Assembly (NCBI GenBank): GCA_947377275.1
Contig: CANCFV010000008.1
Coordinates: forward strand, 1 to 63,882
Length of the DNA: 63,882 nucleotides
Direction of reading: 5' to 3'
DNA from: Burkholderiales bacterium
Lineage (GTDB): Bacteria > Pseudomonadota > Gammaproteobacteria > Burkholderiales > Burkholderiaceae_C
Of the stretch, positions 11,932 to 29,678 are shown in pieces. The position numbers and the translations under genes are program-made. How positions within the stretch are numbered: the first letter of the stretch is position 1; every line of letters starts with the position of its first letter. Under the pieces are notes generated by a model. The model was not told the DNA's origin. It ran no database searches and saw nothing but the letters and a program-made list of their open reading frames with translations.

Positions 11932-11946
11932 GGTCGCTCTCTCTTT

Positions 11947-13429: not shown

Positions 13430-14290
13430 TCAGTGGCGTTGTGCGGCTGCCATCTCGGCTGCCAGCTGTCGCTCGCGTCTGGCCATGAGCCAACTGGCCA
13501 GCACCACCCCTGTCGCCACCACGAGAATGATCACGGTGGCCACGGCGTTGATGCTGGGGCTCAGGCCCAGACGGGCGCGGGAAAAGATGGCCAGGGGCAA
13601 GGTGGTGGCCCCTGGGCCGGAGAGGAAGGCCGACAGCACGACGTCGTCAAGCGAGACCGTGAAGGTCAACAACCAGGCCGACAGCAGCGAGGGCAGCATG
13701 CTTGGCAGGGTGACCAGCATGAAGACCTGAGGCGGCTTGGCGCCGAGGTCCATGGCCGCTTCTTCAAGTTGCGGGTTGATCTCTTTCAGGCGAGCCTGCA
13801 GCACCACGGTGGCGTAAGCCACCCCCAGCAACAGGTGCCCAAGCCAGATCGTCACGGCACCACGCTCCGGGAAACCCAGCCAGCGCTGCATGGACACGAG
13901 CATCAGCAGCAATGACAGGCCGACGATCACCTCGGGCATGACCAGTGGCGCATTGACCATGCCAGAAAACAGCGTGCGTCCCCAGAAGCGCGGATACTTC
14001 ACCAGAGAGAAGGCCGCCAACATGCCCAAGACCACTGACCCGCAGGCTGTGGCCAGGGCGATCTTGAGAGACAAACACAGGCCATCTAGCAGCTCCTGAT
14101 CCTGAGCCAGCGCGCTGTACCACTTGAGCGTGAAGCCTCCCCATACGTTGGGCAAGTCTGATCCGCTGAAGGAGTAGAAGACCAGCGCGACGATGGGCAG
14201 GTAGAGGAACAGAAAGCTGCCAACTAGCCAGACGCGGCCAAAACCGCGGTTGAAGCCAGGCGTGAAAGGGGTGTGTGGGGTGCGGCTCAT
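13430..14290 (-). CDS. potI: Putrescine ABC transporter permease PotI
   Basis: 286 aa inner-membrane permease with about six hydrophobic helices. The binding-protein-dependent permease EAA loop is visible as EEAAMDLGAKPPQVFMLVTL. The frame is open upstream to 14419, but the ATG at 14290 overlaps the potH stop codon by 4 bp (ATGA) and gives the expected length, so translation is probably coupled. LTFTVSLDDVVLSAFLSGPG is typical of PotC/PotI permeases. It works with PotH, PotG and PotF to import putrescine. Confidence 0.93.
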   Translation of the reverse strand: MSRTPHTPFTPGFNRGFGRVWLVGSFLFLYLPIVALVFYSFSGSDLPNVWGGFTLKWYSALAQDQELLDGLCLSLKIALATACGSVVLGMLAAFSLVKYPRFWGRTLFSGMVNAPLVMPEVIVGLSLLLMLVSMQRWLGFPERGAVTIWLGHLLLGVAYATVVLQARLKEINPQLEEAAMDLGAKPPQVFMLVTLPSMLPSLLSAWLLTFTVSLDDVVLSAFLSGPGATTLPLAIFSRARLGLSPSINAVATVIILVVATGVVLASWLMARRERQLAAEMAAAQRH

Positions 14291-15201
14291 CGTTGGCCCT
14301 CCTGGCTCTCGGCCTGCGCCTTGTTGAACAGGGCCAGCGGCACGATGATCAGCAAAATCATCACCACGGCCACGCTGGATGCCATCGGCCAATCGTTGTT
14401 GGCAAAGAACTCGTCCCACAGCACGCGGCCAATCATCAAGGTGGACGGGCCACCCAACAGTTCAGGGATCACGAACTCACCCACGCAGGGGATGAACACG
14501 AGCATGGCGCCAGCCAAGATGCCGGGACGTGACAAGGGCACCGTGACCCGCCAAAACGCCACCCAGGGCGTGGAGCCCAGGTCGGATGCAGCTTCCAGCA
14601 GGCGGATGTCCATCTTCGACAAGGTGGCGAACAGCGGCAGCACCATGAAGGGCAGGTAGGTGTAGACCATGCCGATCACCAGTGAAAACGGCGTGTTCAT
14701 CAGCTGGCCTGGCGCAGGGATGAGCCCGAGGTTGGCCAACAGGGGTTCGATGCCGATGGCGCCCATGGCCTCAGCCACCCATCCGCCTTCGCTCAGCAAG
14801 CCCTTCCATGCGTAGACACGCAGCAGGAAGCTGGTCCAAAAGGGCAGCATCACCAGCATCAGCAGGCTGGCCTGCACTGCCTTGTTGGCCCTTGCCATGA
14901 AATAGGCAAAGGGATAACCGATCCACAGGCAGCACACGGTGGTGATGGCCGCGTACTTCAGGCTGGTGAGGTAGGTTTTGAAGTAGAGGTCATCCTGCGT
15001 GATGAACACATAGTTGGCCACGCGGATGCTCAGGTGAAGCACGCCTTCGGAATAGGTGATGAGGTCCTTGAAGCGCACGGTCTCCATCTCGGAGACGCTG
15101 ATCTTGAAAACAATCAGGAAGGGCAGCAGGAAGAAAATCAGCAGCCAGGTGTATGGCACGCCGATCACGGCACGCCGGCCAGGGTTGAGGTTGAAGCTCA
15201 T
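14287..15201 (-). CDS. potH: Putrescine ABC transporter permease PotH
   Basis: 304 aa inner-membrane permease of the PotB/PotH type. After a short cytoplasmic start comes the first helix (WLLIFFLLPFLIVFKISVSE), a periplasmic segment, and five more helices. The EAA loop reads LEAASDLGSTPWVAFWRVTV. FIPCVGEFVIPELLGGP is a conserved family stretch. It is 10 bp downstream of potG and overlaps potI. Confidence 0.93.
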   Translation of the reverse strand: MSFNLNPGRRAVIGVPYTWLLIFFLLPFLIVFKISVSEMETVRFKDLITYSEGVLHLSIRVANYVFITQDDLYFKTYLTSLKYAAITTVCCLWIGYPFAYFMARANKAVQASLLMLVMLPFWTSFLLRVYAWKGLLSEGGWVAEAMGAIGIEPLLANLGLIPAPGQLMNTPFSLVIGMVYTYLPFMVLPLFATLSKMDIRLLEAASDLGSTPWVAFWRVTVPLSRPGILAGAMLVFIPCVGEFVIPELLGGPSTLMIGRVLWDEFFANNDWPMASSVAVVMILLIIVPLALFNKAQAESQEGQR

Positions 15202-15211
15202 GGTGCGGGCC

Positions 15212-16330
15212 TCATTGCGTCAGCACGACTTGAGCTGTGTCGTCCCAGCTTGCCCAAACCAGATCACCCGTCTGAAGCGCGTCATCGCTGTGGCGGCTGG
15301 TATTGGCCATCGATACCTTGATCGTGGCGCCACTGCTCAATTGCACGTGGTAGACCGTGAAACTGCCAAAGTACGCGAGGTCACGCACGGTGCCTCTGGT
15401 GTGGTTGTACAAGCCTTCAGGTCGCACGCGGCTCAACCCGACCTTCTCGGGGCGCACGGCCACAGCGACGGACATGCCTTCGGTCCCGGTGATGCCATGC
15501 CCGACGAGGTGGTGGCAGTCATCGCACTGGATCACCACATGATCGGGTGCATCCTGCACGACGACGCCTTCCATCATGTTGACGTTGCCGATGAAGTCGG
15601 CCACGAAGCGGGTGGCGGGGGTTTCGTAGATCTCGTGTGGCGCGCCCACCTGCAGGATGCGGCCTTCGCTCATCACGGCGATGCGGCTGGCCATGGTCAT
15701 GGCTTCTTCCTGATCGTGGGTCACCATCACGCAGGTCACACCCACGTCTTGAAGGATGTTGACCAGCTCAATCTGCGTCTCTTCGCGCAGCTTCTTGTCC
15801 AGTGCGCCCAGGGGCTCGTCCAGCAAGAGGAGCTGCGGCTTCTTGGCCAAGCTGCGGGCCAGCGCCACGCGTTGTTGCTGGCCGCCCGACAGTTGGTGCG
15901 GCTTGCGCTTGGCGAACTTGCCCAGTTGGACCAACTTGAGCATGTCGTCCACCCGCGCTGCCACCTCGCCTTTGCCCAGGCCGTCGCGTTTGAGGCCAAA
16001 GGCGATGTTCTCCCACACCGACAGGTGCGGGAACAGCGCATAGCTCTGGAACATCATGTTGATGGGCCGCTGGTAGGGCGGCAAGCTCACCAGGTCCTGT
16101 CCATTGAGGACGATGCGGCCTGAGGTGGGCGTCTCGAAGCCAGCCAGCATGCGCAGCAGCGTGGTCTTGCCACAGCCGCTGGAGCCAAGCAAAGCGAAGA
16201 TCTCGCCCCGCGCGATGTCGAGGTTGATGTGGTTGACCGCCACCGCGCCGCCACCGAAGTCTTTGACGACGTCATGGATCTGCAAGAAGGTCTTGGATGC
16301 TGTGGGGGGAGGGGAAAGAACTGCGCTCAT
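15212..16330 (-). CDS. potG: Putrescine ABC transporter ATP-binding protein PotG
   Basis: 372 aa cytoplasmic ATPase. Walker A is GSSGCGKTT, the Q-loop lies at [21 protein letters not shown], the signature is [16 protein letters not shown] and Walker B is [12 protein letters not shown], with the switch His in VTHDQEEAM. The C-terminal about 120 residues form a TOBE domain ([11 protein letters not shown]). The [19 protein letters not shown] stretch is characteristic of the polyamine/spermidine group. It lies 28 bp after potF. Confidence 0.94.
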
Positions 16331-16358
16331 GATGGGTTTGGCTCCTGTTTGCTCAGAC

Positions 16359-17480
16359 TCACAAGCCGGTCTTGAACGAGGTGTAGATGCGTGTCATCTG
16401 GCGGCGGATGTCGTTGCTGAGCGAATCAGGCTGCGCCATCTTGGCCATCTCAGCTTCTGACGGGTACACGGCTGGGTCGTTGGCAATTTCTGGCTTGACG
16501 AACTTGCGCGCTGCCTGGTTGGGGTTGGGGTAGAACACCTTGTTGGTCAGCGATGCGTGAACCTCGGGCCTCAGGATGTAGTTGATCCACTTGTGGGCGT
16601 TCTCAGGGTGTGGCGCATCGGCCGGTATGGCCATCGTGTCCATGAAAATCACGCCGCCTGTTTTGGGCAACAGGGTCTGGATGTTTTGACCCGTCTTGCC
16701 TTCGATGGCCCGGTTTTTCGCGATGTTGATGTCACCGGCATATCCAAAAGACACGCAGAGCGAGCCGTTGGCCAGGTCGTTGATGTAGCCACTGGAGCTG
16801 AACAAGGTCACATAGGGCCGAATGGCCTTGAGCACAGGCGGCACCAGTTGGTAGTCGCCAACAGCCCTGCTGTAGGCGGGCTTGCCGAGGTAGTGCATGA
16901 CAGCGGGCACCACTTCCGTGGGTGAATCGAGGAAGGACACGCCACAGCTTTTCAGCTTGCTGATGTACTCAGGCTTGAAGATCAGGTCCCACGCGTTGTC
17001 GGGCATGGGCAGGCTGCCGAGCGCGGCTTTGACCTTGTCAACGTTGATGCCCACCGTGGTGTAGCTCCACATCCAATCGACGAGGTACTGGTTGCCAGGA
17101 TCCAGCTTGCTCAATTGAGCAAGCATCACGGGGTCCAGGTTCTTGTAGTTGCTCAGCTTGCTCTTGTCGATTTTTTGCAGAAGGCCACCGTCGGCCTGCA
17201 TCTTGGCCCAGTAGGACGATGGCACCACGATGTCATAGCCCGTCTTGCCGGCCACCAGCTTGGCGTGCACGATTTCGTTGTTGTCGAAAACGTCGTACCG
17301 CACCTTGATGCCAGTCTCTTTTTCGAAGTTGGCAATGGTGTCGGGCGCGATGTAGTTGGACCAGTTGTAAACGTTGAGCACCTTCTCTTCTTCGGCCTGG
17401 GCCTGCCCCATGGGCAGGGCAAGCAGTGCCAGGCAAGGCAACAGAGATCGGAGCGGACGGCGACTTGGGGTTCGTGACAT
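16359..17480 (-). CDS. potF: Periplasmic putrescine-binding protein PotF
   Basis: 373 aa. The Sec signal peptide ends about residue 29 (GQAQA-EEEK). The mature protein starts with LNVYNWSNYIAPDTIANFEK, where the Trp-Ser pair contributes to polyamine binding in PotF proteins. IVVPSSYWAKMQADGGLL, WDLIFKPEY and DTMAIPADAPHPENAHKWIN are conserved features of the family. It captures putrescine in the periplasm for PotGHI. It follows puuA by 25 bp. Confidence 0.94.
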   Translation of the reverse strand: MSRTPSRRPLRSLLPCLALLALPMGQAQAEEEKVLNVYNWSNYIAPDTIANFEKETGIKVRYDVFDNNEIVHAKLVAGKTGYDIVVPSSYWAKMQADGGLLQKIDKSKLSNYKNLDPVMLAQLSKLDPGNQYLVDWMWSYTTVGINVDKVKAALGSLPMPDNAWDLIFKPEYISKLKSCGVSFLDSPTEVVPAVMHYLGKPAYSRAVGDYQLVPPVLKAIRPYVTLFSSSGYINDLANGSLCVSFGYAGDINIAKNRAIEGKTGQNIQTLLPKTGGVIFMDTMAIPADAPHPENAHKWINYILRPEVHASLTNKVFYPNPNQAARKFVKPEIANDPAVYPSEAEMAKMAQPDSLSNDIRRQMTRIYTSFKTGL

Positions 17481-17505
17481 GTGGTGGTTCCTTCAGATGG
17501 CGTGA

Positions 17506-18900
17506 TCAGACGTGCAGCAGCAGGTGCTCTCGCTCCCACGGCGAGATCACCTTCATGAATTCGGCGTGTTCGGTCTCTTTGACTTCGGCGTAGACCGTGA
17601 TGAACTCTTGGCCCAACAGCTCGGCCAGGTCGGCTTCTTCGCGCAGCAAGCTCACTGCCTCACCCAGGCTGCGTGGCAAGCCGTAGTCACCCAGATAAGC
17701 ATCGCCCTTGCATTCCGCAGTGGGCTCGATCTGCTTCTGGATACCGAGGTAGCCGCAGGCCAGGGTGGCAGCCAGTGCGACATAGGGATTGGCATCGGCA
17801 CCGATCACACGGTTCTCGATGCGGCGCGCGGCCGGTGGGGCAACGGGGGAGCGAAAGCCCACGGTGCGGTTGTCCGTGCCCCATTGGATGTTGATGGGCG
17901 CAGCGGTGTGGCGCGCAAGGCGACGGTAGCTGTTCACATAGGGTGCGAGCAAGGCCATGGCCGAGGGGATGTAGCGCTGCAGGCCGCCGATGTACCAGTA
18001 GAACTCTTTGGAGGCGGTGCCATCCGGGTTGCTGAAGATGTTCTGTCCGGTGACCTTGTCGACCACGCTCTGGTGCACGTGCATGGCGCTGCCAGGCTCG
18101 TTGGCAATTGGCTTGGCCATGAAGGTGGCGTACATGTCGTGGCGCAGGGCGGCCTCGCGCACCGTGCGCTTGAAGAAGAAGACCTCGTCGGCCAGTTGCA
18201 GCGGGTGATCGTGAAAGAAGTTGATCTCCATCTGCCCGGCGCCAATTTCGTGGATGAGGGTGTCCACGTTGAGCTTCATGGCCTCGCAGTAGGCGTAGAT
18301 GTCTTCAAACAGGGGGTCGAACTCGTTGACGGCGTCAATCGAATAGGCTTGGCGAGACGTTTCAGCTCGGCCGCTGCGACCCTTGGGCGGCTTCAGTGGC
18401 AGGTCCGGATCGAGGTTGCGCTCGACCAGATAGAACTCCAACTCAGGGGCCACCACGGGCGCCCAGCCCTTGGCATCGAAGAGCTCACACACGCGCTTGA
18501 GCACTGATCGCGGCGCAAAGGGGATGAGCTTGCCGTCGCGGTCGTAGCAATCATGGATGACCTGAGCGGTCGGATCGGTGGCCCAGGGCACGATGCGGGC
18601 GGTGCTCGGGTCGGCCCGCAGGTGCATGTCGTGGTCGGTGGCGCTGATCACCTCGAAATAGGGGCCAGACTCGGGCTGCTCGCCGGTCACGCCCATGGCC
18701 ACGACGATCTCGGGCAGGCGCATGCCGCGGTCTTCTGTGAAGCGGTCACGGGGCAGGATCTTGCCTCTGGCCACGCCGGTGAGGTCAGGAACAAGGCACT
18801 CGACCTCGGTCACGCGTTGCTCGATGAACCACTTCTCAAGCTCGGCGAACGACTGGTTTGTGGTGGAGGTGTTGGGGTTCGGATTGGTTGGCGTGCTCAT
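17506..18900 (-). CDS. puuA: Gamma-glutamylputrescine synthetase (glutamine synthetase family)
   Basis: 464 aa from the ATG at 18900; a GTG at 18984 would add 28 residues without family similarity, so the ATG is preferred. It ligates glutamate to putrescine with ATP as the first committed step of the Puu pathway. Visible GS features: ELEKWFIEQRVTEVECLVPD, the Glu-rich metal site APELEFYLVE, EIGAGQMEINFFHDHPL, the ATP/glutamate loop ANEPGSAMHVHQSV and NRTVGFRSP. The first copy of two in this locus (the other is at 23609-24946). It is 25 bp upstream of potF. Confidence 0.9.
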   Translation of the reverse strand: MSTPTNPNPNTSTTNQSFAELEKWFIEQRVTEVECLVPDLTGVARGKILPRDRFTEDRGMRLPEIVVAMGVTGEQPESGPYFEVISATDHDMHLRADPSTARIVPWATDPTAQVIHDCYDRDGKLIPFAPRSVLKRVCELFDAKGWAPVVAPELEFYLVERNLDPDLPLKPPKGRSGRAETSRQAYSIDAVNEFDPLFEDIYAYCEAMKLNVDTLIHEIGAGQMEINFFHDHPLQLADEVFFFKRTVREAALRHDMYATFMAKPIANEPGSAMHVHQSVVDKVTGQNIFSNPDGTASKEFYWYIGGLQRYIPSAMALLAPYVNSYRRLARHTAAPINIQWGTDNRTVGFRSPVAPPAARRIENRVIGADANPYVALAATLACGYLGIQKQIEPTAECKGDAYLGDYGLPRSLGEAVSLLREEADLAELLGQEFITVYAEVKETEHAEFMKVISPWEREHLLLHV

Positions 18901-19055
18901 GGGGAGGTCTTTTGAATGGTCGCCAGCCTCATCTTCGGCTTGCGAAAGGCGTGGCTGGGCTTGGCACGGGCGCGAGATGGGCACCCGTGGTCCGTTTGGG
19001 TCTGATGTGCGTGGAGGTCGGCGTCACCTGAACAGGCGATGCCAAGCAGGTGCAG

Positions 19056-19859
19056 TCAGGGTCCGGGTGGGCGATGCAGGTCGCGCCAGGACCGGCATGC
19101 ATCACCAAATGCCTTGAGAATGCCCAGTGAGATTGGGTTCGCGTTGGCCTGCCACTCGGGATGCCACTGAACGCAAAGGCTGAAGCCAGCGCTTTGTGGC
19201 ACGGAGAAGGCTTCGACCAAGCCATCCGGCGCGGTGGCCTCGATCCGCAAACCATCGGCGAGCCGCGCTATGCCTTGGCCGTGCAGGCTGTTGACCTGCA
19301 AGCAGTCGGTTTCAAGCAAGGCAGACAACAGGCCGCCGGGGTGAACTTGAATTGGGTGAGCCAAGCCGTATTGCACATTGACAGGCTGGGCGTCATCAGG
19401 TGCGCGGTGGTCAGCGAGTCCGTGCTGCTCGTGCACGGCCTGATACAAGCTGCCCCCCAACGCGACGTTGGTTTCTTGGAACCCTCGACAGATGCCGAGC
19501 AGTGGCAGGCCACGCTTCACTGCATGGCGTATCAGAGGCAGGGTCCAAAGATCTCGGACTGGATCCAGGGGCAGGGTGGCATCGTGAACGGCCTCGCCAA
19601 AGTGCTGAGGGTGCACGTTGGAGGGGGAGCCTGTCAGCAAGATCCCATCGGCGATGTCCAGCCAGTCAAGCAGCTCTTCAGGGTGGGCGCTGGGCACCAC
19701 AATCGGCAGGCAACCGGCCAGGCGCACAGCCTCGATGTATTTCTGCCCCACGACATGAAATGGGTGCTGTCCGACCGTGCGATGACACGAGGGCACCAGC
19801 ACACGTGGTGCATGGCGCGGCAGCGAGCTGTTGATCGGACGGAGTTCGGGGGTCGACAT
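19056..19859 (-). CDS. puuD: Gamma-glutamyl-gamma-aminobutyrate hydrolase (peptidase C26)
   Basis: 267 aa from the ATG at 19859; upstream in-frame codons to 20009 run through a terminator and are not coding. It hydrolyses gamma-glutamyl-GABA to GABA and glutamate. The class I amidotransferase-like triad is complete: Cys124 in LLGICRGFQE, His233 and Glu235 in VQWHPEW. GILLTGSPSNVHP is the conserved loop following the first half. No Shine-Dalgarno is visible, and a TTGTGATCA operator-like word lies 3 bp before the start. The gene lies 155 bp upstream of puuA. Confidence 0.9.
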   Translation of the reverse strand: MSTPELRPINSSLPRHAPRVLVPSCHRTVGQHPFHVVGQKYIEAVRLAGCLPIVVPSAHPEELLDWLDIADGILLTGSPSNVHPQHFGEAVHDATLPLDPVRDLWTLPLIRHAVKRGLPLLGICRGFQETNVALGGSLYQAVHEQHGLADHRAPDDAQPVNVQYGLAHPIQVHPGGLLSALLETDCLQVNSLHGQGIARLADGLRIEATAPDGLVEAFSVPQSAGFSLCVQWHPEWQANANPISLGILKAFGDACRSWRDLHRPPGP

Positions 19860-19861
19860 GT

Positions 19862-19873
19862 TTGTGATCAAAT
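19862..19873. promoter_or_regulatory. Operator-like site TTGTGATCAAAT before puuD
   Basis: Nine of its first ten bases follow the palindrome TTGTGATCACAA found before puuA2. It begins 3 bp from the puuD start codon, so a bound repressor would cover the translation start and probably the promoter. It is a probable site for the GntR/FCD regulator encoded just upstream; this is inferred from the repeated word. Confidence 0.5.
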
Positions 19874-19980
19874 CTTTGATGTACGAACAATATCTGCAGA
19901 ACGATCCATCTGGAAGAGCCACTTGATGCCAGATGGCTGGTCCACTTTTTGCTTGTTTTTGGGGCGTGGCTGTTGGTGTG

Positions 19981-20004
19981 AAAAAAATGCCCCAGGTTGG
20001 GGCA
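19981..20004 (-). terminator. Rho-independent terminator after the GntR regulator
   Basis: Read on the minus strand: stem TGCCCCA / TGGGGCA with a 3-base loop followed by seven T. It would end the regulator transcript about 210 bp after its stop, implying that puuD and downstream genes have their own promoter. Confidence 0.85.
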
Positions 20005-20216
20005 ATCAAGTCTGAGCGACTGGCACAGGAATTCAGGGTTTTGGATGACAGGCGTCGGGCAGTGCTCGAGCGTCATGCGGTAGCCTTCCCAGGCTGGTGA
20101 GCGCTGTCTCTTGCTCGCGCGGAACTGGTCTGGCGCGGGCGACAGGCGAGGCTGTCAAACCGGCTATATCGAGCACCTCATTGGTGCGCGCGAACTGCGG
20201 CCGAGGTGCCGGCAAT

Positions 20217-20924
20217 TCAAGGCGTTCGGATCTCCGATTTGATCGGCTGCCTGAGTGCTCGCAGCCTTTGGCGAAGAAACTGACTGGCCACAAAGATGTC
20301 TTTCTCGATGGCGCGGCGCACACCGGCGCTGTCGCCGCGCATCAGGGCCTTGATCACCTCTTCATGGGAGTCGTTGAGCACCAAAGAGGCTTCCTCTGTG
20401 TCAAACAACTGGTTGGAGATGGGGCCTGCCTTGAGCCACAGCGTGTCTATCATGCTGAACAGCAGGGGCGATCCAGCTGCTCGGTACAGCAGAATGTGAA
20501 AGTCTTCGTTGATGGCCAGATAGGTCGCAGAGTCACCCTGCTCAAGCGCCTCGTGCATTTGAGCGCACAAGCTCTGTAATGCGACTTTTTGAGCGCCGTC
20601 CATGCGAGCGGCGCCACGCTCTGCGGCTTCGCCCTCTAACAGCATCCGCATCTGGAGCAGGTCGTCGAACTCGGCGGGCGCCATGCTGGGAATGGCCACC
20701 CCTGCGTTGGGCATGTTGATCAGCGCGCCCTCTGCAGCCAGTCGCTGCAAAGCTGCGCGCACGGGCATGATGCCGACACCCATGTCGGCTGCAACATCTC
20801 GGATCTTCAGCCGTTGACCGGGCAGAAAATGTCCGACAGTCACCCACTTGCGCAAACGGGAATAAACCGCATCTTGCTGCGTGCTGCTTGCATTCTCAGG
20901 CGAGGCGTTTGCTTCAGCGGTCAT
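20217..20924 (-). CDS. GntR-family regulator, FCD (FadR) subfamily
   Basis: 235 aa. Residues about 15-85 are the winged helix (VYSRLRKWVTVGHFLPGQRL, then VAADMGVGIMPVRAALQRLA). Residues about 95-220 are the all-helical FCD ligand domain with the metal-ligand pattern NEDFHILLYRAAG and NDSHEEVIKAL. It lies inside the polyamine block, between the SDR and puuD genes. FCD regulators bind GT-N-AC palindromes, which fits the TTGTGATCACAA sites nearby. It is most likely the local repressor, with a polyamine-pathway intermediate as inducer; neither point is shown by the sequence. Confidence 0.88.
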   Translation of the reverse strand: MTAEANASPENASSTQQDAVYSRLRKWVTVGHFLPGQRLKIRDVAADMGVGIMPVRAALQRLAAEGALINMPNAGVAIPSMAPAEFDDLLQMRMLLEGEAAERGAARMDGAQKVALQSLCAQMHEALEQGDSATYLAINEDFHILLYRAAGSPLLFSMIDTLWLKAGPISNQLFDTEEASLVLNDSHEEVIKALMRGDSAGVRRAIEKDIFVASQFLRQRLRALRQPIKSEIRTP

Positions 20925-21377
20925 CTGTCATCTGTCATTCATCATCCGTGGTTGGCCATCAGGCCGAAACATCACGCAAGTGGTGCGCACCTGCCATGCC
21001 AGTGCAAGCACACCTGAGTGACCACTGCTGGCTGCGTGAGACCGTGGGCCGGGCTCGAAAATCGGGCCCATGGCGTCGCGTTGAAGGTAGTTTGCCAGAA
21101 GCTGCGACACGTCTCCCCCAGGGGCACCCAACTGTGGTGCCGCGCTCGAAGCGTCATCGTGGTGATGGCTTCGGAGGTGAAATCGACGTTGTGGTGGACG
21201 CAGGGCTGACGTGGTGTGTTTGCACGCGGCATGAGCGGCGCCACAGTGCACCAGCCTGGACGGCGCCGTTCGCATCCATGTGATCACATCGTGAAATCGG
21301 CCATGTGGCTCGACCAGCGTGAGTTGAACCATCGGCCCGCGATACAGGCCTGCTGGATGGGCACTGCCGGGGGGCAA
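20925..21377. other. 453-bp gap between the SDR and the GntR gene
   Basis: An open frame on the minus strand (20928-21377, 149 codons) lacks a recognisable domain, ribosome site or natural composition and is not called. The palindrome at 21279-21290 is the one clear element. The gap is large for this tightly packed block and may be the site of a lost gene. Confidence 0.5.
21279..21290. promoter_or_regulatory. Perfect palindrome ATGTGATCACAT upstream of the GntR gene
   Basis: 12-bp perfect dyad sharing the TGTGATCACA core with the site before puuA2. It lies 355 bp upstream of the GntR/FCD start codon. A candidate autoregulatory site, by motif and location only. Confidence 0.5.
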
Positions 21378-22169
21378 TCAGCCCTTGCTTTCCTGGAGGC
21401 AGTTGCCACCGTCCACAACGATCAGCTGACCAGAAACATAGCTGGCGCCTGGCATGGCCAAGAAGGCGATGGCGCTGGCCACTTCTGTGGCTGTACCGGC
21501 GCGCCCCATGGGGGTGTGCCGTGCTGCTTGTGCTTCTTGCGGGTGTTGTGATTCGGTGGCAACCCAGCCCGGCGCAACGCAATTGACGGTCACCCCTTGC
21601 ATGGCGACCTCCAGCGCCAGAGCCCTGCTCATGCCCACCATGCCGGCCTTGGCTGCGCTGTAGGCGGCTTCGCCGGGGTTGCTTACCAGCGGCCCCGTGA
21701 CAGACGACACATTGACGATGCGGCCGCGCTTTCTCGCCAGCATGTCTGGCAGCACCCGACGCGTGACCAAGTAGCAGGTCGTGAGGTTGCGGGCGATGTC
21801 GTCATGCCATGCGGCGTCATCGAGCTCAGCCAGTGGTGTAAACGACTCGCGCCCGCCATCCTGCACCATGCCTGCATTGTTCACCAGCACGTCAATGTCA
21901 CCCAGGTCTGACTGGACTTGGGCAACCAGCGCGGTCACCTCCTGCGCATTGCGCAAGTCGCCGATGTAGCCGTTCGCCACATGGCCCAGCGCGCGCAATT
22001 CGGCCGAACGCTCGTGGACGCGAGGGCCTGTTGCGCACAGGGCCACTTTGCAGCCCAACTCGGCCAGCAGCCTGGCCGTTGCGAACCCGATGCCGCTGGC
22101 ACTGCCTGCCCCCGTGACCAGTGCAATCTGACCAGGCAGGGAGAAGAGCGGATGCGGGCCTTTAGCCAC
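21378..22169 (-). CDS. Short-chain dehydrogenase/reductase
   Basis: 263 aa classical SDR. Cofactor motif VTGAGSASGIGFA at residues about 18-30, NNAG at about 106, catalytic Ser in NVSSVTG and Tyr-Lys in YSAAKAG, and a C-terminal VVDGGN. The start overlaps the end of the upstream aminotransferase gene by 8 bp, so the two are translationally coupled. It belongs to the sub-operon puuA2-aminotransferase-SDR. A dehydrogenase for an alcohol or aldehyde derived from an amine would fit, but the substrate is not readable. Confidence 0.85.
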   Translation of the reverse strand: MAKGPHPLFSLPGQIALVTGAGSASGIGFATARLLAELGCKVALCATGPRVHERSAELRALGHVANGYIGDLRNAQEVTALVAQVQSDLGDIDVLVNNAGMVQDGGRESFTPLAELDDAAWHDDIARNLTTCYLVTRRVLPDMLARKRGRIVNVSSVTGPLVSNPGEAAYSAAKAGMVGMSRALALEVAMQGVTVNCVAPGWVATESQHPQEAQAARHTPMGRAGTATEVASAIAFLAMPGASYVSGQLIVVDGGNCLQESKG

Positions 22170-23547
22170 CGGTCAGTTCTTGCAGGGCCTGATCCATCGT
22201 GCTGAGCAGCAGCTCAACGTGGGCGTCGGTGGTGTCCGGGCAGATCAGCATCATGTTGTGGAACGGGGTGATCAACACGCCGCGGTTCAGCAGGTAGAGG
22301 TGGATGGCATGTTCAAGTTCTGCATCCATGGCGGCACCAGCTTCAGTGCCGTTTAGAGGTGGCAGGGCGCAGAACTGGAACTCGGTGCGCGCGCCGACTT
22401 GGGTGACGCACCATGGCAGCCCATGTCGTTTGATCAAGGTTTGCAACCCTCGCGCCAGCAGGGCGGCGCGGGCTTGCATGGGCGCGAAGACCTCTGGCCG
22501 CAGGTAGTTACTCAGCGTGGCGCGCATGGCTGCCATCGCCAGCAGATTGGCCGTGAGTGTGGTGCCGATGCCTGAGTGCCCGGCAGGGGCAGCGCGCTTG
22601 GCGGCCACTGCCCTGGAGGCCAGTTCAGCACTGAACCCATATGCTGCGCAAGGCATGCCGCCGCCCAGGGCTTTGCCAACCACCAGGGCATCAACGGCAA
22701 TGCCGTGTTCGCGTGCATAGCCGCCTGGCCCGCTGCTGAGCGTGTGGGTTTCGTCCATCACCAACAAACTGCCGTGGCGTTTGATCAGCTCGGCGGCCTT
22801 CTCCCAATAACCTGGGGCGGGCATCACCATGCCGATGTTGGTCATCACGGGTTCGGCAAGCACGCAGGCCACGTCTCCAGGTGCCAAGGCGGCTTCCAGG
22901 GCGGCAAGGTCGTTGAACTCGATGACCCGCGTCGTGGTCAGAAGGTCCTGCACTTGGCCCAGCAGGCTAGGGCGCTGGACTGGCTGCCCATCCACCAAGT
23001 CGACAAACACATCATCAACGGTCCCGTGGTAGCAGCCGTTGAAGACCAGCAGCACGCGTCTGCCCGTGGCAGCACGCACCCAGCGCAGCATGAAGCGGTT
23101 CGCGTCGGTGGCCGTCATGGCGAACTGCCATTGCGGCAAGCCAAAGCGATCTGCCAGCAGCTGTGCCACCACGGCGGCGTCTTCCCCAGCCAGCATGGTG
23201 GTCATGCCATTGCCCGCCTGGGTCTGCAGTGCTTGCGCGACCGCAGCCGGAGAGTGACCAAACATCGCACCGGTATCGCCGAGGCAGAAGTCTGCCAGCG
23301 TGTGGCCGTCAACGTCCACCAGCTCTGCACCATGTGCCCGATCGACCTGCAAAGCGAAGGGTGTGCCCCAGTCGCTCATCCAGTGCAGCGGCACGCCGAA
23401 CATCATGTGCTCGCAGGCTCGGGCAGCCATGACCTTCGAGCGAGGGCGGTTGTCGATGTAGCGCGCGCGCTCTCGTTCGAGCAGCGCGCTCACCTGCTCT
23501 GGCGCGATGCCGGTTGGCCAGTGGTGGGGGGCAATGGGGGCGTTCAT
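22162..23547 (-). CDS. Class III PLP aminotransferase
   Basis: 461 aa, related to the glutamate-1-semialdehyde aminomutase-like branch. The PLP lysine is Lys292 in VVGKALGGGMPCAAYG, the cofactor aspartate lies in LLVMDETHTLSSGPGGY, and the phosphate-binding area includes FNGCYHGTVDDV. A genuine HemL is unlikely: the length, the MDETHT variant and the context do not match heme synthesis. It sits 61 bp after puuA2 and overlaps the SDR gene. It may transaminate a glutamylated or free amine or omega-amino acid in parallel with gabT. Confidence 0.82.
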   Translation of the reverse strand: MNAPIAPHHWPTGIAPEQVSALLERERARYIDNRPRSKVMAARACEHMMFGVPLHWMSDWGTPFALQVDRAHGAELVDVDGHTLADFCLGDTGAMFGHSPAAVAQALQTQAGNGMTTMLAGEDAAVVAQLLADRFGLPQWQFAMTATDANRFMLRWVRAATGRRVLLVFNGCYHGTVDDVFVDLVDGQPVQRPSLLGQVQDLLTTTRVIEFNDLAALEAALAPGDVACVLAEPVMTNIGMVMPAPGYWEKAAELIKRHGSLLVMDETHTLSSGPGGYAREHGIAVDALVVGKALGGGMPCAAYGFSAELASRAVAAKRAAPAGHSGIGTTLTANLLAMAAMRATLSNYLRPEVFAPMQARAALLARGLQTLIKRHGLPWCVTQVGARTEFQFCALPPLNGTEAGAAMDAELEHAIHLYLLNRGVLITPFHNMMLICPDTTDAHVELLLSTMDQALQELTGG

Positions 23548-23608
23548 GGTCGAGGTCGTTGAATGCTTGAGTCGGTTTGTGTGGGGTCAGCGCTGTTTGT
23601 CTGATGGC

Positions 23609-24946
23609 TCACACGAGCAGCAACAGGTGTTCGCGCTCCCAGCTGCTGATCACGCGGTTGTAGCCCGCGTTTTCGAGCTCTTTGACTGCGCAGAAGGCGT
23701 CAACAAAGCGCTCGCCAAGCACGTCGCGCAGATCGTCGCAGGCGCGCATTGATTCCAGCGCGTCCTCAAGATGGCGGGGCAATTCGTGGTTGACGTTCCA
23801 GGCGCTGTCCAGGGTTGGCTCGGTCGGTTGGAGTTGCTTCTGCATGCCAAGGAGGCCGCATGCCAGCGTGGCAGCCATGGCCAGATAGGGGTTGGTGTCG
23901 ACCCCGGGCACACGGTTCTCTACACGGCGAGCTTGCGGGCCTGACTTGGGGATGCGGATGCCGCAGGTTCGGTTGTCATGACCCCAGCGCACGTTGATGG
24001 GCGCCGACATGTAGGGCGCCAAGCGCCGGTAGGAGTTGACGTAGGGCGCGAGCACCGGCATCACTTGCGGGATGTAGACCTGCTGGCCTGCAATGAAATG
24101 GTGGAACAGGTCTGATGCCTGCCCATCGGGGCGGCTGAAGATGTTGTCGCCAGTTGCAGCATCAACGATGCTTTGATGGATGTGCATCGCGCTGCCAGGC
24201 TCGCCCTCCATGGGCTTGGCCATGAAGGTTGCAAAAACCCCATGGCGCAGCGCGGTCTCGCGCACGGCCCGCTTGAACAAGAACACACGGTCTGCCAACT
24301 CCATCGGGTCACCGTGGCTGAAGTTGATCTCCATCTGGCCTGGGCCGGCTTCATGGATGAGCGTCTCCACGCCCAATCGGTGTTGCCCACAGAAGGTTGA
24401 CAGCTCCTGGAAGAATGGATCGAAGTCATTGACCGCATCAATCGAGTAGCTTTGACGACCGACTTCGGGCTTGCCTGTGCGACCCAGGGGCGGATGCAAT
24501 GGCTCGTGTGGGTTGAGTTGCCGTGCAACCAGGTAGAACTCCATCTCAGGTGCCACGACGGCGCGCCAACCCTGCTTCTCGTAGAGCGAGAGCACCCGGC
24601 GGAGCACAGCCCGGGGCGAGAGTTGCACGGGCTGGCCATCCCATTCTTCGCAGTCGTGAATGACCACAGCCACTGGCTCTGCCGCCCAGGGGACGATGCG
24701 GATGGTGGACGCGTCGGGCTTGCAGACCATGTCGGGATCCGTGTCCCCCACGAAAGGGCCGTTGTCCGGTTGCTGCCCGTTGACCGTGTTCAACAACACG
24801 CTTTTGGGGATGCGCATTTCACCGCTGGCGAGGAACAGATCCCTGGGAAGGATCTTGCCGCGCGCGATGCCCGTCATGTCGGGGATCACGCATTCGACCT
24901 CGTGAATGCTGTGGGTGGTGAGGAAATCGTGGAGTTCGGAGTTCAT
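23609..24946 (-). CDS. Second glutamylamine synthetase (PuuA-like, glutamine synthetase family)
   Basis: 445 aa from the ATG at 24946; upstream codons to 24994 would translate the operator. Conserved GS blocks: VECVIPDMTGIARGKILPRD, APEMEFYLV, EAGPGQMEINFSHGDPM, EGEPGSAMHIHQSI and NRTCGIRIP. It is clearly paralogous to puuA at 17506-18900 but diverged, and keeps the same C-terminal SWEREHLLLLV ending. First gene of the minus-strand block and head of the puuA2-aminotransferase-SDR unit. The amine it glutamylates may differ from putrescine. Confidence 0.87.
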   Translation of the reverse strand: MNSELHDFLTTHSIHEVECVIPDMTGIARGKILPRDLFLASGEMRIPKSVLLNTVNGQQPDNGPFVGDTDPDMVCKPDASTIRIVPWAAEPVAVVIHDCEEWDGQPVQLSPRAVLRRVLSLYEKQGWRAVVAPEMEFYLVARQLNPHEPLHPPLGRTGKPEVGRQSYSIDAVNDFDPFFQELSTFCGQHRLGVETLIHEAGPGQMEINFSHGDPMELADRVFLFKRAVRETALRHGVFATFMAKPMEGEPGSAMHIHQSIVDAATGDNIFSRPDGQASDLFHHFIAGQQVYIPQVMPVLAPYVNSYRRLAPYMSAPINVRWGHDNRTCGIRIPKSGPQARRVENRVPGVDTNPYLAMAATLACGLLGMQKQLQPTEPTLDSAWNVNHELPRHLEDALESMRACDDLRDVLGERFVDAFCAVKELENAGYNRVISSWEREHLLLLV

Positions 24947-25403
24947 GATCAGATGATAAAGAAAAAATTTGCACTTGTGATCACAAAATTGCATTAAATT
25001 TGAAAAAAGCGAGGATTAACCTTGGTATGTGATCTCATGTTTGGGTGGCGTGTGGGGATTTGAACTGACTAAGACACGTGGAAAGTGCTCCAGATCGACC
25101 CCTTGTGATACGGCCGTCATGTAGCGGTGCAAAGCGACCGAACTACGAGAGCCAACAGGGGTGACAGTGCAGCGCGCCGAGCTGTCCCATCTGTGTCAGC
25201 GAGCCGGGGCGGATGGCCGGATGGAGCTGCTGGACGCCAAGCATCAGCTGAATGCGGGGCAGAGAAGCACAGACGACACAAGCATGTGTGGTGGGTTTGA
25301 GCGCATCCTGCAAGCTCCTTGGCGATCTGTTCGCTGAGCCGGAGGGCGACACGCTCTTGGTCGGGGGGCGCTTCAATCCCGGCTTCGGTGAAGCAGGCGG
25401 GTG
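24947..25403. other. 457-bp gap between puuA2 and the hybrid kinase
   Basis: No confident gene. It holds the puuA2 operator and AT-rich promoter area (about 24947-25040), a tRNA 3'-end-like stretch (25042-25067, minus strand), and a minus-strand reading frame at about 25310-25395 whose codons look protein-like but lack a start and end. The latter two are treated as findings, not genes. Confidence 0.6.
24975..24986. promoter_or_regulatory. Perfect operator palindrome TTGTGATCACAA before puuA2
   Basis: 12-bp perfect dyad in a strongly AT-rich region, beginning 29 bp upstream of the puuA2 ATG, where a repressor would block transcription of the whole block. The same core occurs at 21279-21290 and, with changes, at 19862-19873. 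A near-match (TGTGATCTCA) lies at 25028-25037. Confidence 0.65.
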
Positions 25404-28400
25404 CTAGCTGGACACAGCTTCAAGGTGAGACTGGACTTGCGTCAATGCAGCGGCAAAGGCCAACTCAAAGTGCTCGATGAGCGCTGGTGTCAAGGCCTTG
25501 TTGCCTGCGCTTGCCGCAGCCTCAAGGGTCTCACAGGCCTGACCCAAAGCCACGGCGCCAACCGACCTGGATGATGACTTCAGTTTGTGCGCCACAGCAC
25601 TGACAGTGCGTGGGTCGCTTGCCTGAACGGCTGAGCGCAGTTCCTTCACGTGTTGCTGCGCCGACGCGTCAAAGTCGGCCAACAGTTCGTTCAATACATC
25701 GGCATCGTCGCCGACTAATGATCGCAATACTTGAAGATTCAACACGTCCAGAGGGGTGGAGGCGACAGGCTTGTCTGCATGCTGGGGCTGTTGGGCTTGG
25801 GCGGGCATCCAAGCGTTCAAGGCACTGCGCAGCACGGGCAAAGACACGGGTTTGGTCAGGTACTCGTCGATGCCGATCTTGCGTGCCTGCTCAGCTTCAC
25901 TCTTCATGGCATTGGCTGTCAGTGCGAGGATGGGCAGGCGGCGTCCTGCGTGTGCCTGTGGGCCATTCTTTTGCTCTTCTTCTCGGATGATGCGAGTCAG
26001 CGCATAGCCGTCGAGTTCGGGCATGTGCAGGTCTGTCAGCAACATGGCATGCTGGCCGGACCGCCACAGCGCCAAGGCTTGAGCGCCATCGTTTGCAAAC
26101 TCTGCGGTGTGCCCAAGCAAGGCCAGTTGGCGCTTGAGCACGGCACGGTTCGTGGCATCGTCTTCAGCCACCAGAATCAAGCGGCCTTGTGTGTTCGATG
26201 TCCCCGGCAAGGGCGCGGCCGGATCCAGCCGCCACGTCTCGGCATGTGTTGTCACTGATGGCTCGATCGTTTGGCGGCCTGCCGCCACGCCCACGGCGCG
26301 CACAAAGTGCGCTCGTCGCAGCAGGTCGATGGCGATCACTGAAGGGGTGACGGTGCGTATCGATTCCCGTTGGCCATAGCCCACCCATAGCTCACGCTGC
26401 TTACCCTCGGCAGCGTCAGGCAAGGCGAGGGTATCGCAGGCGTCCGAGCCTGCACGCACCACCACGGCGGGCGCTTCCTGGGCAAGGGCAAACTGCTGAG
26501 CGTCGTGCAAAGTTTTGGCCTCGAACACGTCGGCGCCAGCGGCCTCAAGCCATTGCCGCAATTGCGCAGCAGGCAGGTCGGCGGCAGTCGCCAACACGCA
26601 TCGCAAGCCGGTCAAGGATGGTGCAGCGCGAGGGATCTCAGCATCGGTGGGCAGTGGCAATGTGAAGGTGAACTCAGAGCCCATGCCTGGCTCACTGTGC
26701 ACCGACATGCGCCCGCCCATCAAATCGACCAAACGTTTGCAGATCACCAGCCCCAAACCGGTGCCGCCAAAGCGCCGCGTGGTGGATACCTCGGCCTGCA
26801 TGAAGGGGGAGAACAAACGCGCAACGGTCTCAGTGCTCATGCCAATGCCGTTGTCGGTGACGCCAAACCGGATGCCATCGTCGTCAGTGCTCACGCGCAC
26901 CATCACCCTGCCCGGCAGGCCATCTTTGCGGGCGCTGAACTTGATGGCGTTGCCGATCAGGTTGTTCAGCAACTGGCGTACGCGCAGCGCGTCACCCATC
27001 AGCTTTTGCGTCAAGGAAATGTCCACCCAAACCGTCAGCTGCACACCGCGCTCAATGGCCAGAGGCATCAGGGCGCTACACACGCCTTCGGCCAGTTCGC
27101 TCACATCGAATGGCGCCACATCCAGGTCCATCCGGCCGGCTTCAATTTTTGAGAAGTCCAGGATGTCATCGATCAGCATCAGCAAGGCTTGGCCTGAATT
27201 GACGATGGTTCGCACAGCCTGCGACTGGTCTTCGGTGAGCGCGCTGTGGGTCAGCAACTCGGCCATGCCCACCACGCCATTCATGGGTGTGCGGATCTCG
27301 TGGCTCATGGCCGCCAGAAAGGCACTTTTGGCACGGGTTGCTGATTCGGCCTCTTCGGCACGAACGGCCAGCTCGTCATTGAGCTGCCCCATCTGCATCT
27401 CCGCTTGCTTCAGCGGTGTGATGTCGGTCACGAGAACGATGAAGCCTTGGACCACGCCGTCTACCCAGTGCGGGATGTAGTTGGCCATCACGTGGCTCAC
27501 GCTGCCGTCGGGTTTGGTCATCTGGCGCTGGAAGTGTTGCTCTTCGCCAGCCAGCGCGCCACGCACATGGTGTTCGTTGCGCTGATACAGATCGGGGCCC
27601 ATCAGTTCATCAATGCGGATGCCCTTCATCTGCCCGCGATCGAGCCCGAACCAGCTCCGGTACGCCTTGTTGGCGAAGCGGTTGCGCAGGTCGGTGCCCC
27701 AGTAGCCGATCATGCCTGGGATGTTGTCTGTGAGTTGCTGCAAGAAGTGCTCGGTGCGCATCAGGGCGTTGTTGGCTTGCGTCAATTGCTGCTGGGCAAC
27801 GTACAGCTCGTCAAGGTTGCGGCGCCGCTCAGTGACGTCGGTTTCGATGGCCACGAAGCCTGTGAGTTGACCGTCAGCGCTGCGCAGGGGCGAGATGTGC
27901 GTCTCCACCCAGTAGTCGCGTCCATGTTTGTCGCGGTTGCGCAGTTCGCACTGGTGGCTCTGGCCAGCATTGAGCGCATCGCGCAGGCGCCCCCGTTCAA
28001 CGGGGTCGGAGTGTTCGCTATGCAGCAACAGACCCGGCGATTTCCCGATGGCTTCTTCAGCCAGATAGCCAGTCAGGCGGGTGAAGCCTTCGTTGACCCA
28101 GCGGATGCGGCGATCGGTGTCGGCCACGATCACCGCATTGGTGGTGTAGCGCGCCAGCATGGCCATGGGTTCCAGCTGCGCGGCCAAAGCGGTTGCTTCG
28201 TCGCGGGCTGACTGAAGTTGCGCTTCAACCAGCTTCATGGCCGTGATGTCGGTGTCGATGGACATGAACCCGATGACCTGGCCTTCCGCGTTGACCGTCG
28301 GCTGCAAGTCCACCTTCATCCAGAAGGTGCGACCGTCTCTGGCTCGGTTGCACACCTCGGCAGTGACTGCATGGCCTTCACGCACGCCGGCTTCAAGCCG

Positions 28401-29678
28401 CTCATTCTCCGCTGGGTCCGTCAAGAGGGTGCCCACCAGCTCGCCCATGGTGCGTCCGATGGCATCCGGCAACGCATGGCCCGTCACCTGTGTGAACGCA
28501 GGGTTGACCCAAGTGATGCGGCCCTGGCGGTCCATCATCACAACGATATTCGATGTGTGTTCGACGATGCGGGCCAGGCCTTCGAGTTTGGCCGTGAGCA
28601 ACTGGGCGCGCACTTTGACATGGGTTCGCCAACTGGCCTGCATCCAGGCGCCCCAAGCCATCAGCGTGCTCAGGGCCAATCCCGATAAGACGACAACGAC
28701 GGTGGTCTGATGCGTATGGACTGCATCGAAGCTGGGTCGCGTCGTGGTGCGCAACGTGAAGGCCATGCCTCCCAACGATAGTGCTCGGGTGGTGCTGAAT
28801 CGACTCTTCCTATGGGTGTTAGCGGCAGAGGCAGATGAGGGCGGCATGTTGGCCGCTGCGGTGGCGTTGTGCCCGTCGTCATAGACCCGGCTTGCTTCGC
28901 TGGTGTCGGTACCCGCAAAGAGCTCTATGTCCAGTTCGCCTGAGACGTAATCGTCTATGCCTCGGACGAGGTCTTCAACCACGATGGGTGCGCTCAGCAG
29001 GCCTATCAAGGCGCGCTTGCGGTCTTCATCGCTGTTGAGTACGACGCCTTTTTTGTACACGGGCAGCAGCAACAGAAAACCGATGGGCTGACCTTGGTCC
29101 TGTAAAAGCCTTACGGGCACAGTCAGCGTGGGCTTGCCCGAAGCGATGGCTTGTTCGATGGTTGCGTACCGCTTGGCTTTGCCGCCCTCGTTGAAGCCCA
29201 TGGCTTCGTGCTCATCCAAAGCTTTGACGTACTTGATACCAGGCCGATCGCTCGCATCGCCATTTGCCTTGACGACCATGACGGGCGCCGTTTCGGCACG
29301 GACGGCCGCCGCGAACCGGTCCACATCCTCACGGTACACATTCTCGAGAAAGCCAATGCCAAGGACGCCCGGAAAATCTTGCATCAAATTGATCGACCCC
29401 AAATAGGTCTGAAGCTCATTCAGCCTCACATCCTCGCTGGCGTTGAACAATCCGCGGGCGCCTTTCAGGCCGTATTCGGGCAAAGTTAAGCGGCGCTGGG
29501 TTTCCACGGCGATGCGCTCACTCAGTCGCATGAACTCGGTCTGCGCGTCCGCTTCTTCTTCGCGGAACATGGCGCGACTGACCAGCGCCGTGAGTACCAG
29601 TCCCAGCAACAGAGCAAGTGTGGCCCAGCGCCAAGGCTGGGCGCGATCTGAGGCAGGAGGGGCAGGGACTATCGGCAT
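25404..29678 (-). CDS. Hybrid sensor histidine kinase: CHASE-PAS-PAS-PAS-HisKA-HATPase-REC-Hpt
   Basis: 1424 aa membrane-bound phosphorelay kinase. Helix 1 is at about 17-36, a periplasmic CHASE domain at about 60-250 (GVLGIGFLENVYREDVDRF) and helix 2 at about 325-345. Three PAS domains cover about 365-765. The dimerisation helix carries phospho-His793 in AAMSHEIRTPMNG. The ATPase N, G1 and G2 boxes are NLIGNAIKFS, VTDNGIGM and GGTGLGLVICKRL. A degenerate receiver-like segment (about 1030-1150) precedes a true receiver with Asp1216 (LLTDLHMPELDG) and LTKPVS; Hpt His1364 lies in VAHKLKSSSRS. There is no cognate output regulator beside it. The ligand is unknown. Confidence 0.93.
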   Translation of the reverse strand: MPIVPAPPASDRAQPWRWATLALLLGLVLTALVSRAMFREEEADAQTEFMRLSERIAVETQRRLTLPEYGLKGARGLFNASEDVRLNELQTYLGSINLMQDFPGVLGIGFLENVYREDVDRFAAAVRAETAPVMVVKANGDASDRPGIKYVKALDEHEAMGFNEGGKAKRYATIEQAIASGKPTLTVPVRLLQDQGQPIGFLLLLPVYKKGVVLNSDEDRKRALIGLLSAPIVVEDLVRGIDDYVSGELDIELFAGTDTSEASRVYDDGHNATAAANMPPSSASAANTHRKSRFSTTRALSLGGMAFTLRTTTRPSFDAVHTHQTTVVVVLSGLALSTLMAWGAWMQASWRTHVKVRAQLLTAKLEGLARIVEHTSNIVVMMDRQGRITWVNPAFTQVTGHALPDAIGRTMGELVGTLLTDPAENERLEAGVREGHAVTAEVCNRARDGRTFWMKVDLQPTVNAEGQVIGFMSIDTDITAMKLVEAQLQSARDEATALAAQLEPMAMLARYTTNAVIVADTDRRIRWVNEGFTRLTGYLAEEAIGKSPGLLLHSEHSDPVERGRLRDALNAGQSHQCELRNRDKHGRDYWVETHISPLRSADGQLTGFVAIETDVTERRRNLDELYVAQQQLTQANNALMRTEHFLQQLTDNIPGMIGYWGTDLRNRFANKAYRSWFGLDRGQMKGIRIDELMGPDLYQRNEHHVRGALAGEEQHFQRQMTKPDGSVSHVMANYIPHWVDGVVQGFIVLVTDITPLKQAEMQMGQLNDELAVRAEEAESATRAKSAFLAAMSHEIRTPMNGVVGMAELLTHSALTEDQSQAVRTIVNSGQALLMLIDDILDFSKIEAGRMDLDVAPFDVSELAEGVCSALMPLAIERGVQLTVWVDISLTQKLMGDALRVRQLLNNLIGNAIKFSARKDGLPGRVMVRVSTDDDGIRFGVTDNGIGMSTETVARLFSPFMQAEVSTTRRFGGTGLGLVICKRLVDLMGGRMSVHSEPGMGSEFTFTLPLPTDAEIPRAAPSLTGLRCVLATAADLPAAQLRQWLEAAGADVFEAKTLHDAQQFALAQEAPAVVVRAGSDACDTLALPDAAEGKQRELWVGYGQRESIRTVTPSVIAIDLLRRAHFVRAVGVAAGRQTIEPSVTTHAETWRLDPAAPLPGTSNTQGRLILVAEDDATNRAVLKRQLALLGHTAEFANDGAQALALWRSGQHAMLLTDLHMPELDGYALTRIIREEEQKNGPQAHAGRRLPILALTANAMKSEAEQARKIGIDEYLTKPVSLPVLRSALNAWMPAQAQQPQHADKPVASTPLDVLNLQVLRSLVGDDADVLNELLADFDASAQQHVKELRSAVQASDPRTVSAVAHKLKSSSRSVGAVALGQACETLEAAASAGNKALTPALIEHFELAFAAALTQVQSHLEAVSS

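Follow-up and report, generated by a model that had tools for sequence, protein, structure and literature searches.

Gene content and predicted operators of the locus

The window analysed here, a stretch of 63,882 base pairs (bp), is the entire contig C8 (CANCFV010000008.1) of a Burkholderiales bacterium, the assembly of which measures 3.81 Mb in 221 contigs and is 86.9% complete with 6.15% contamination. On its minus strand lie the genes of a glutamine-synthetase-like ligase (puuA2), a pyridoxal-5′-phosphate (PLP)-dependent aminotransferase, a short-chain dehydrogenase/reductase (SDR) and a regulator (gntR), followed by puuD, puuA1 and a set of pot genes. The regulator belongs to the GntR family and is of the FCD type, with an N-terminal GntR helix-turn-helix (HTH) domain and a C-terminal FCD domain; it passes both Pfam cut-offs, with 53 bits (cut-off 27) for PF00392 and 92.3 bits (cut-off 24.3) for PF07729. 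Between these genes are several palindromes centred on TGATCA, and we propose that they are the operators of this FCD protein, which would join the puuA2 operon and the puuD-puuA1-pot genes under one regulator (Table 1).

The sites had been pointed out in an earlier note on this DNA. On direct reading of the sequence they are present, and by the gene calls used all of them are intergenic, although some details have to be revised. A perfect core dyad had been claimed at two places, but the full TTGTGATCACAA is found only at 24975–24986, 28 bp from the ATG of puuA2. The span given as 21279–21290 was shifted (it reads TGTGATCACATC); the dyad occupies 21278–21289 and does not immediately precede gntR, being 88 bp past the SDR stop codon and 353 bp upstream of gntR, with no partner site found near it. 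The gap between the SDR gene and gntR (455 bp) contains no recognisable gene remnant. The sequence at the puuD start, TTGTGATCAAAT, is identical to the proximal operator of six relatives (L088, L090, L091, L093, L108 and L113). A near-match at window positions 32025–32036, TTGTGATCACGC, has one perfect half-site and is located 13 bp upstream of an SDR gene (32050); with two deviations from the family consensus, it was set aside as probably due to chance.

The window alone gives moderate evidence against chance. Allowing at most one mismatch, TGTGATCACA has seven matches against a shuffle mean of 2.46, a number reached by 1 of 100 shuffles, and the four matches of TTGTGATCACAA with at most two mismatches (2.32 expected) are alone not significant. 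The genome-wide count is more telling. The family consensus WTKTGATCAMAW, derived from the operator dialects at the puuA2 promoters of relatives, has three exact matches in the 3.81-Mb genome, all intergenic and all inside 5.1 kb of the window. According to a first-order Markov model derived from the window sequence, 2.5 would be expected per genome and 0.0034 in 5,125 bp; the probability of two further sites within 5,125 bp is then about 6e-6, a value that is indicative, as the degenerate letters were chosen after seeing the window sites. The sites are real and not a product of chance. A one-mismatch match elsewhere in the genome (C85:3963) falls inside a reading frame of 425 residues, an amidohydrolase by eye.

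Table 1. Features of the locus, with window coordinates
Feature	Position	Strand	Remarks
GntR/FCD regulator, proposed binder of the palindromes	20217..20924	-	Pfam GntR and FCD; relatives in 80 loci
puuA2, glutamine-synthetase-like ligase	23609..24946	-	NCBIfam scores all under cut-off; leads the operon in most relatives
PLP aminotransferase, NCBIfam PRK07046	22162..23547	-	731 bits against a cut-off of 425; conserved in the operon
SDR dehydrogenase	21378..22169	-	shares 8 bp with the aminotransferase reading frame; few relatives have it in the operon
puuD-like gamma-glutamyl-GABA (gamma-aminobutyrate) hydrolase	19056..19859	-	199 bits against a cut-off of 266; Peptidase_C26; adjoins puuA1 and pot genes
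puuA1, second glutamine-synthetase-like ligase	17506..18900	-	profile scan
potF, potG, potH, potI-like transporter genes	13430..17480	-	potF and potI by scan, potG and potH from gene order; collinear in genus-mate G356
Proximal operator (predicted) of the puuA2-aminotransferase-SDR operon, TTGTGATCACAA	24975..24986	.	genome's only exact copy; the same at the orthologous place in many relatives
Distal operator (predicted), ATGTGATCTCAT	25027..25038	.	differs from the family consensus at one position; 52 bp, centre to centre, from the proximal site
Operator (predicted) in the SDR-gntR gap, ATGTGATCACAT	21278..21289	.	exact consensus; same 12-mer 5′ of puuA2 in L113 and L119
Operator (predicted) at the puuD start, TTGTGATCAAAT	19862..19873	.	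exact consensus; the puuD ATG follows after 2 bp
Terminator-like hairpin with T run, gntR-puuD interval	19988..20004	-	weak: 6 such found against 4.4 expected by shuffling
Two AGTGG direct repeats 5′ of puuD	19915..19950	-	common to G356; presumed MocR-type boxes

Beyond the pot genes, the cluster in the window continues with genes for a DUF3138 protein and a PuuC-like aldehyde dehydrogenase. Upstream of puuA2, a hybrid sensor kinase of 1424 residues is encoded at 25404–29678 on the minus strand.

Conservation of the operon and its upstream site

Relatives of the regulator were collected from one genome per species over 84,980 species; 205 were found, and the best 80 were taken as loci. The upstream regions of 65 of these were judgeable, 12 having been dropped because the upstream part was missing or ill-defined and 3 because they had no puuA2 or aminotransferase match. 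The unit conserved over the 80 loci is an operon of puuA2, the aminotransferase, sometimes SDR, and gntR, with gntR as the last gene in most cases. An SDR gene is part of the operon in L056, and SDR fragments are found in L055 and L071; puuA2 is missing in Pseudorhodoferax and a Variovorax. In eight loci, six from Vogesella, one from a Neisseriaceae metagenome-assembled genome and the Beta proteobacterium L13, gntR and puuA2-aminotransferase are divergently arranged, and there the site pair is found 5′ of puuA2, towards gntR. No conserved flanking genes were recognised across the 80 loci beyond puuA2, the aminotransferase and gntR. Eight loci of Pseudorhodoferax, Variovorax and Hydrogenophaga have a permease-like family in common, which may be of the branched-chain-amino-acid type.

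The exact consensus is present in 59 of the 65 judgeable regions, against a mean of 0.04 and a maximum of 1 in shuffled sequences and none for the reversed pattern, and 26 regions carry two exact copies. Among all 64 six-base palindromes TGATCA is the most enriched, occurring in 63 regions with 5.3 expected. Conservation upstream of the puuA2 operon, on which the reading of the motif had been staked beforehand, is thereby borne out. The six regions without the consensus are that of L055, four from Pseudorhodoferax and Variovorax that have the one-letter variant TTATGATCAAAA, and that of L092, which has ATTGGATCAAAT. Genome-wide, the exact consensus is rare, with 0–10 copies per genome in 23 relatives (10 in G318). 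The exact 12-mer was found in 14 genomes, in seven of which (G113, G124, G154, G184, G216, G218 and G238) it lies away from any puuA2 match.

Dependence of the site on gntR

Within the 200 family genomes searched for both (G000–G199), the exact 12-mer occurs in 5 of the 10 that have a gntR orthologue (at least 62% identity) versus 4 of the 190 others (P 1.1e-5). A similar comparison was made with 30 aminotransferase loci, taken with flanks of about 1.5 kb on each side and leaving out L252, which is at a contig end. Six of the eight loci from genomes with gntR have the exact consensus and the other two have near-sites, and no site (0/21) was found in the flanks of the loci from genomes without gntR, where L268 lacks the upstream side. 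A stand-alone gntR (L096), with a divergent neighbour from outside the operon, carries ATTTGATCAAAT 10 bp before its ATG, and in Pseudorhodoferax near-sites stand before aminotransferase-gntR despite the missing puuA2. The sites go with gntR and not with the enzymes. Given the conservation in 59 of 65 regions, the dependence on gntR and the site at the stand-alone gntR, the FCD regulator encoded in the locus very probably has this motif as its operator, as the earlier note had supposed.

The relatives use two operator dialects, one containing G and one of T type. FadR Arg35 makes an Arg-G contact according to the consulted part of PMC4494728. Each of the 36 loci with a G-containing operator has Arg at the aligned position, whereas 18 loci, all of T type, have His, Lys or Asn there; a further 11 loci with Arg are also of T type. 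At the position aligned with FadR Arg45, no Arg is found in the loci examined (Ile in the window and mostly Gln, Val or Leu elsewhere), and the same is true of McbR. A GT-(N)-AC dyad had been offered as the typical FCD site. TTGTGATCACAA fits the family consensus NyGTNxACNy with x = 4, a consensus given with known exceptions in the consulted part of PMC4494728; the core here, however, is TGATCA, and ATTTGATCAAAT, found in Hydrogenophaga, Vogesella and some Paraburkholderia, has no GT/AC and does not fit.

Predicted operator pairs and their position

A second site, scored as at least six of eight flanking positions, was found in 56 regions, that of the window included. The centres of the two sites are 51–54 bp apart in 35 of the 56 pairs; the eight divergent loci have a spacing of 24 bp, and the rest one of 38, 62–66, 72–74, 84, 86 or 140 bp. 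Double sites at a constant distance are also described for FadR-type regulators in the portion of PMC4494728 available to us. Helical phasing at 10.5 bp gives a Rayleigh P of 2e-8 over related loci and of about 0.02 on distinct spacings; phasing of the operator pairs is suggestive only.

Where gntR is part of the operon, the relatives mostly have the proximal operator centred 16–70 bp before the inferred start codon; in L114, L121 and L127 the distance is 93–94 bp. A promoter-like pair, TTGACA-17-TAAATT, lies between the two operators in Limnohabitans (L067); in other relatives such pairs are found downstream of them. In L081–L084 (Pseudorhodoferax and a Variovorax), ABC ATPases accompany a near-operator pair spaced by 52 bp and the aminotransferase and gntR genes, without puuA2, which hints that the ligand may be tied to the aminotransferase substrate.

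Substrate and pathway

That the locus is a polyamine regulon, as had been put forward, is plausible, but not all parts of that view stand. PuuA2 reaches 192.8 bits with the gamma-glutamylputrescine synthetase model NF045547, the cut-off of which is 650, and the best models of PuuD and of the PuuC-like protein (650 bits against 850) are likewise under cut-off; both proteins pass Pfam models (Peptidase_C26 and Aldedh). In the DNA of up to 7 kb on either side of gntR in the 80 relatives, no match to puuD, potF, potH or potI was found (E up to 1e-10), and no pot, puuD or puuC-type neighbours are conserved there; the potG matches near gntR are ABC ATPases at 28–41%. The link to polyamines is a plausible but unproven lineage-specific extension. 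A gamma-glutamyl ligase, an aminotransferase and a dehydrogenase would, by gene content, fit an amine substrate. The closest solved aminotransferase, 5ykr, is entitled ‘Probable aminotransferase’ and names no substrate; its locus tag is presumably PA4088, a search for which gave nothing useful.

The puuD site within the genus

The consensus is absent from all 48 judgeable puuD upstream regions of other genomes, three of which (G069, G076 and G100) carry gntR elsewhere, so that the idea of puuD as a general target of the motif has to be given up. This count leaves out L204 and L228, both at contig ends, and L231, which duplicates the place of L203, and the loci of one search are its best 30 places. 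The gntR gene and a close puuA2 occur in 1 of the 42 genus genomes searched, namely that of the window itself.

One genus-mate, G356, is informative here, being the only one with a readable puuD upstream region in the orthologous cluster (in G359 and G344 the contig breaks off at this point). It has the same order of aldehyde dehydrogenase, DUF3138, pot, puuA1 and puuD genes and is 77% identical over window positions 10429–19961, and the collinearity ends 102 bp upstream of puuD. For the other side of the window, no nucleotide match was found in the fetched 37.1–206.6 kb of the G356 contig. Beside puuD, G356 has a divergent MocR-type gene and no operator, and the aligned bases at the puuD start differ. 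The encoded protein is over the cut-off of the PdxR model and reaches 262 of the 600 bits of the GabR model, and Pfam gives a GntR domain only. The AGTGG repeats common to the window and G356 stand about 45–75 bp upstream of the 19862 site. No close counterpart of the G356 MocR protein was found in the window's genome (86.9% complete), the best match there being a different paralogue with 44% identity at 1490–3004 on the minus strand. This paralogue, a MocR-type regulator at the far end of the contig, has 77% counterparts in G356, elsewhere than at puuD, and in G359.

The FCD module probably came to adjoin the puuD-pot operon, which then gained an operator. In the simplest history, the module arrived beside puuD-pot, the local MocR gene was lost and the start of puuD acquired an FCD operator. 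Going further, the FCD regulator of the acquired module may have taken over puuD-puuA1-pot from the lost MocR protein and brought two gamma-glutamyl-amine pathways under one switch; we advance such a regulatory capture tentatively, giving it slightly less than even weight, and the MocR gene could still lie in the 13% that the assembly lacks. At puuD an operon seems to have come under a new regulator only recently, and this rewiring would be the most interesting part of the locus. In genome G000, a second cluster of DUF3138, pot, puuA and puuD genes (L234 1567–9441, G000:C5) has no TGATCA in the 250 bp before puuD, which suggests two differently controlled clusters.

Proposed mechanism and its alternatives

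From the conservation, pairing and spacing of the operator, its dependence on gntR and its presence at puuD here and not in G356, we infer a mechanism that we consider likely: the FCD protein binds the WTKTGATCAMAW palindromes, represses its own operon through the operator pair and, in this genome, also controls puuD-puuA1-pot. Each TGATCA-centred palindrome would be bound by a dimer. In the ancestral setting the protein would control one operon that includes its own gene, that is puuA2, the PLP aminotransferase, sometimes the SDR gene, and gntR. The two operators at the promoter of this operon would lie about five helical turns apart, so placed that the bound dimers may cooperate or hold a small loop, and they would block transcription until released by an amine-derived ligand (an amine or a gamma-glutamyl-amine). 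Since the proximal operator is close to the start codon, its occupancy should hinder initiation of transcription or early elongation, and the operator that nearly touches the puuD start codon would for the same reason act as a roadblock. The two extra exact operators in the window would put puuD-puuA1-pot, and probably gntR, under the same control.

Several observations weigh against this mechanism. Besides the one FCD gene on this contig, a number in agreement with the earlier note, the genome encodes six further FCD proteins. L055 (Aquabacterium terrae), which has the closest named regulator (76%), is without a site in the locus, and not one exact consensus is present in its genome (G299). 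The puuA2 match in L055 begins only at residue 66, so that the upstream DNA looks replaced; because the consensus is lacking from the whole genome, our confidence in the main explanation is slightly lowered. L125, which has gntR and no aminotransferase match, has no upstream site. The Arg35 covariation corresponds to about two independent changes on the tree and is not significant, its direction being as expected; several columns outside the HTH correlate with the operator type as strongly, and there are the 11 Arg loci of T type. The spacings fit best to a period of 9.75 by one test and of 11.0 by a second, not 10.5, and promoter-like matches scatter round the proximal site, with no placement possible for the window. 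The further FCD proteins, the non-significant covariation in the HTH and the L055 genome, with gntR and no site, would suit a regulator encoded elsewhere, to which gntR is a conserved passenger of the operon. We regard this as quite unlikely, as the sites track gntR: they are absent from the flanks, about 1.5 kb a side, of the 21 aminotransferase loci without it (L268 lacks the upstream side), present at a stand-alone gntR and retained as near-sites without puuA2, and the exact consensus is rare in the genomes of the 23 relatives.

It may also be asked whether only the puuA2 pair is functional, with chance matches at puuD and in the SDR-gntR gap, given that the other 48 puuD upstream regions are without the site and the 21278 site is so distant from gntR and apparently unpaired. 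This is unlikely, for no exact match to the consensus besides these two and the puuA2 site exists in the 3.81 Mb (with the probability of about 6e-6 given above), and their exact 12-mers occur at the puuA2 promoters of relatives. Activation by the FCD protein, with the distal site as activator site and the proximal one in a modulating role, would agree with the position of the distal site upstream of promoter-like elements in several relatives; it is rather unlikely, since of the two sites the proximal one usually matches better, and its centre is in places only 16–28 bp before the start codon. For FCD regulators, repression is expected from a site so near the start codon. A very unlikely explanation is that the junction of the FCD module with puuD-pot is an assembly chimera. 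The fragmented, incomplete and partly contaminated assembly, the end of the G356 synteny 102 bp upstream of puuD and the absence of gntR and the close puuA2 from the other 41 genus genomes searched would all allow it, but the FCD-type operator at the puuD start sits inside the part collinear with G356, where a misassembly would not create it.

Comparison with known systems

The regulator shares the GntR winged helix and FCD domain with McbR (4p9f), the nearest solved structure, and with its FCD-type kin FadR and VanR, and like other FCD-type regulators it has a (predicted) palindromic site and a gene in or beside the regulated operon. Compared with the family consensus GT-Nx-AC, as published in the consulted part of PMC4494728, the core TGATCA is different, and the T-type ATTTGATCAAAT is without GT-Nx-AC. 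In E. coli the puu genes are repressed by PuuR, which is of the XRE family, whereas the window regulator is a GntR protein; PuuR is said to be absent in Comamonadaceae, and MocR-type GabR was reconstructed as controlling puuA, puuD and an ABC transporter in some of them (PMC5320631, in the excerpts available). The earlier statement that the pathway appears to have a regulator other than PuuR here is therefore not new as it stands, MocR-type GabR being already published for such Comamonadaceae genes in that text. The reconstructed GabR regulons contain the same kind of puuD, puuA and transporter targets, and the regulator class and the site differ, to judge from those excerpts of PMC5320631. 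As the MocR protein of G356 passes the PdxR and not the GabR model, its identity with GabR is not established by model score.

Literature searches on TTGTGATCACAA, on TGATCA with GntR family, operator and FCD, and on gamma-glutamylputrescine with GntR gave no match; for ATTTGATCAAAT, TTGTGATCACA or TGTGATCACAA, no title on a bacterial regulator was among the matches listed, and one passage was a primer. While this kind of regulator is itself known, the comparison would assign an operator to a widespread FCD regulator. The prediction at the level of the operon can be tested in cultured strains (such as Ideonella paludis, Rhodoferax, Hydrogenophaga pseudoflava and Vogesella indigofera), and the two dialects TTGTGATCACAA and ATTTGATCAAAT, both found in a single group of relatives, offer a natural experiment on FCD specificity. 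A close parallel is Atu1419 of Agrobacterium fabrum, an FCD/VanR repressor with two palindromes per promoter, as here. In the part of PMC7797058 consulted, it is a tetramer that was seen to loop DNA; its site is ATGTATACAT, and its sites are 190 or 109 bp apart, compared with mostly 51–54 bp in the relatives studied here.

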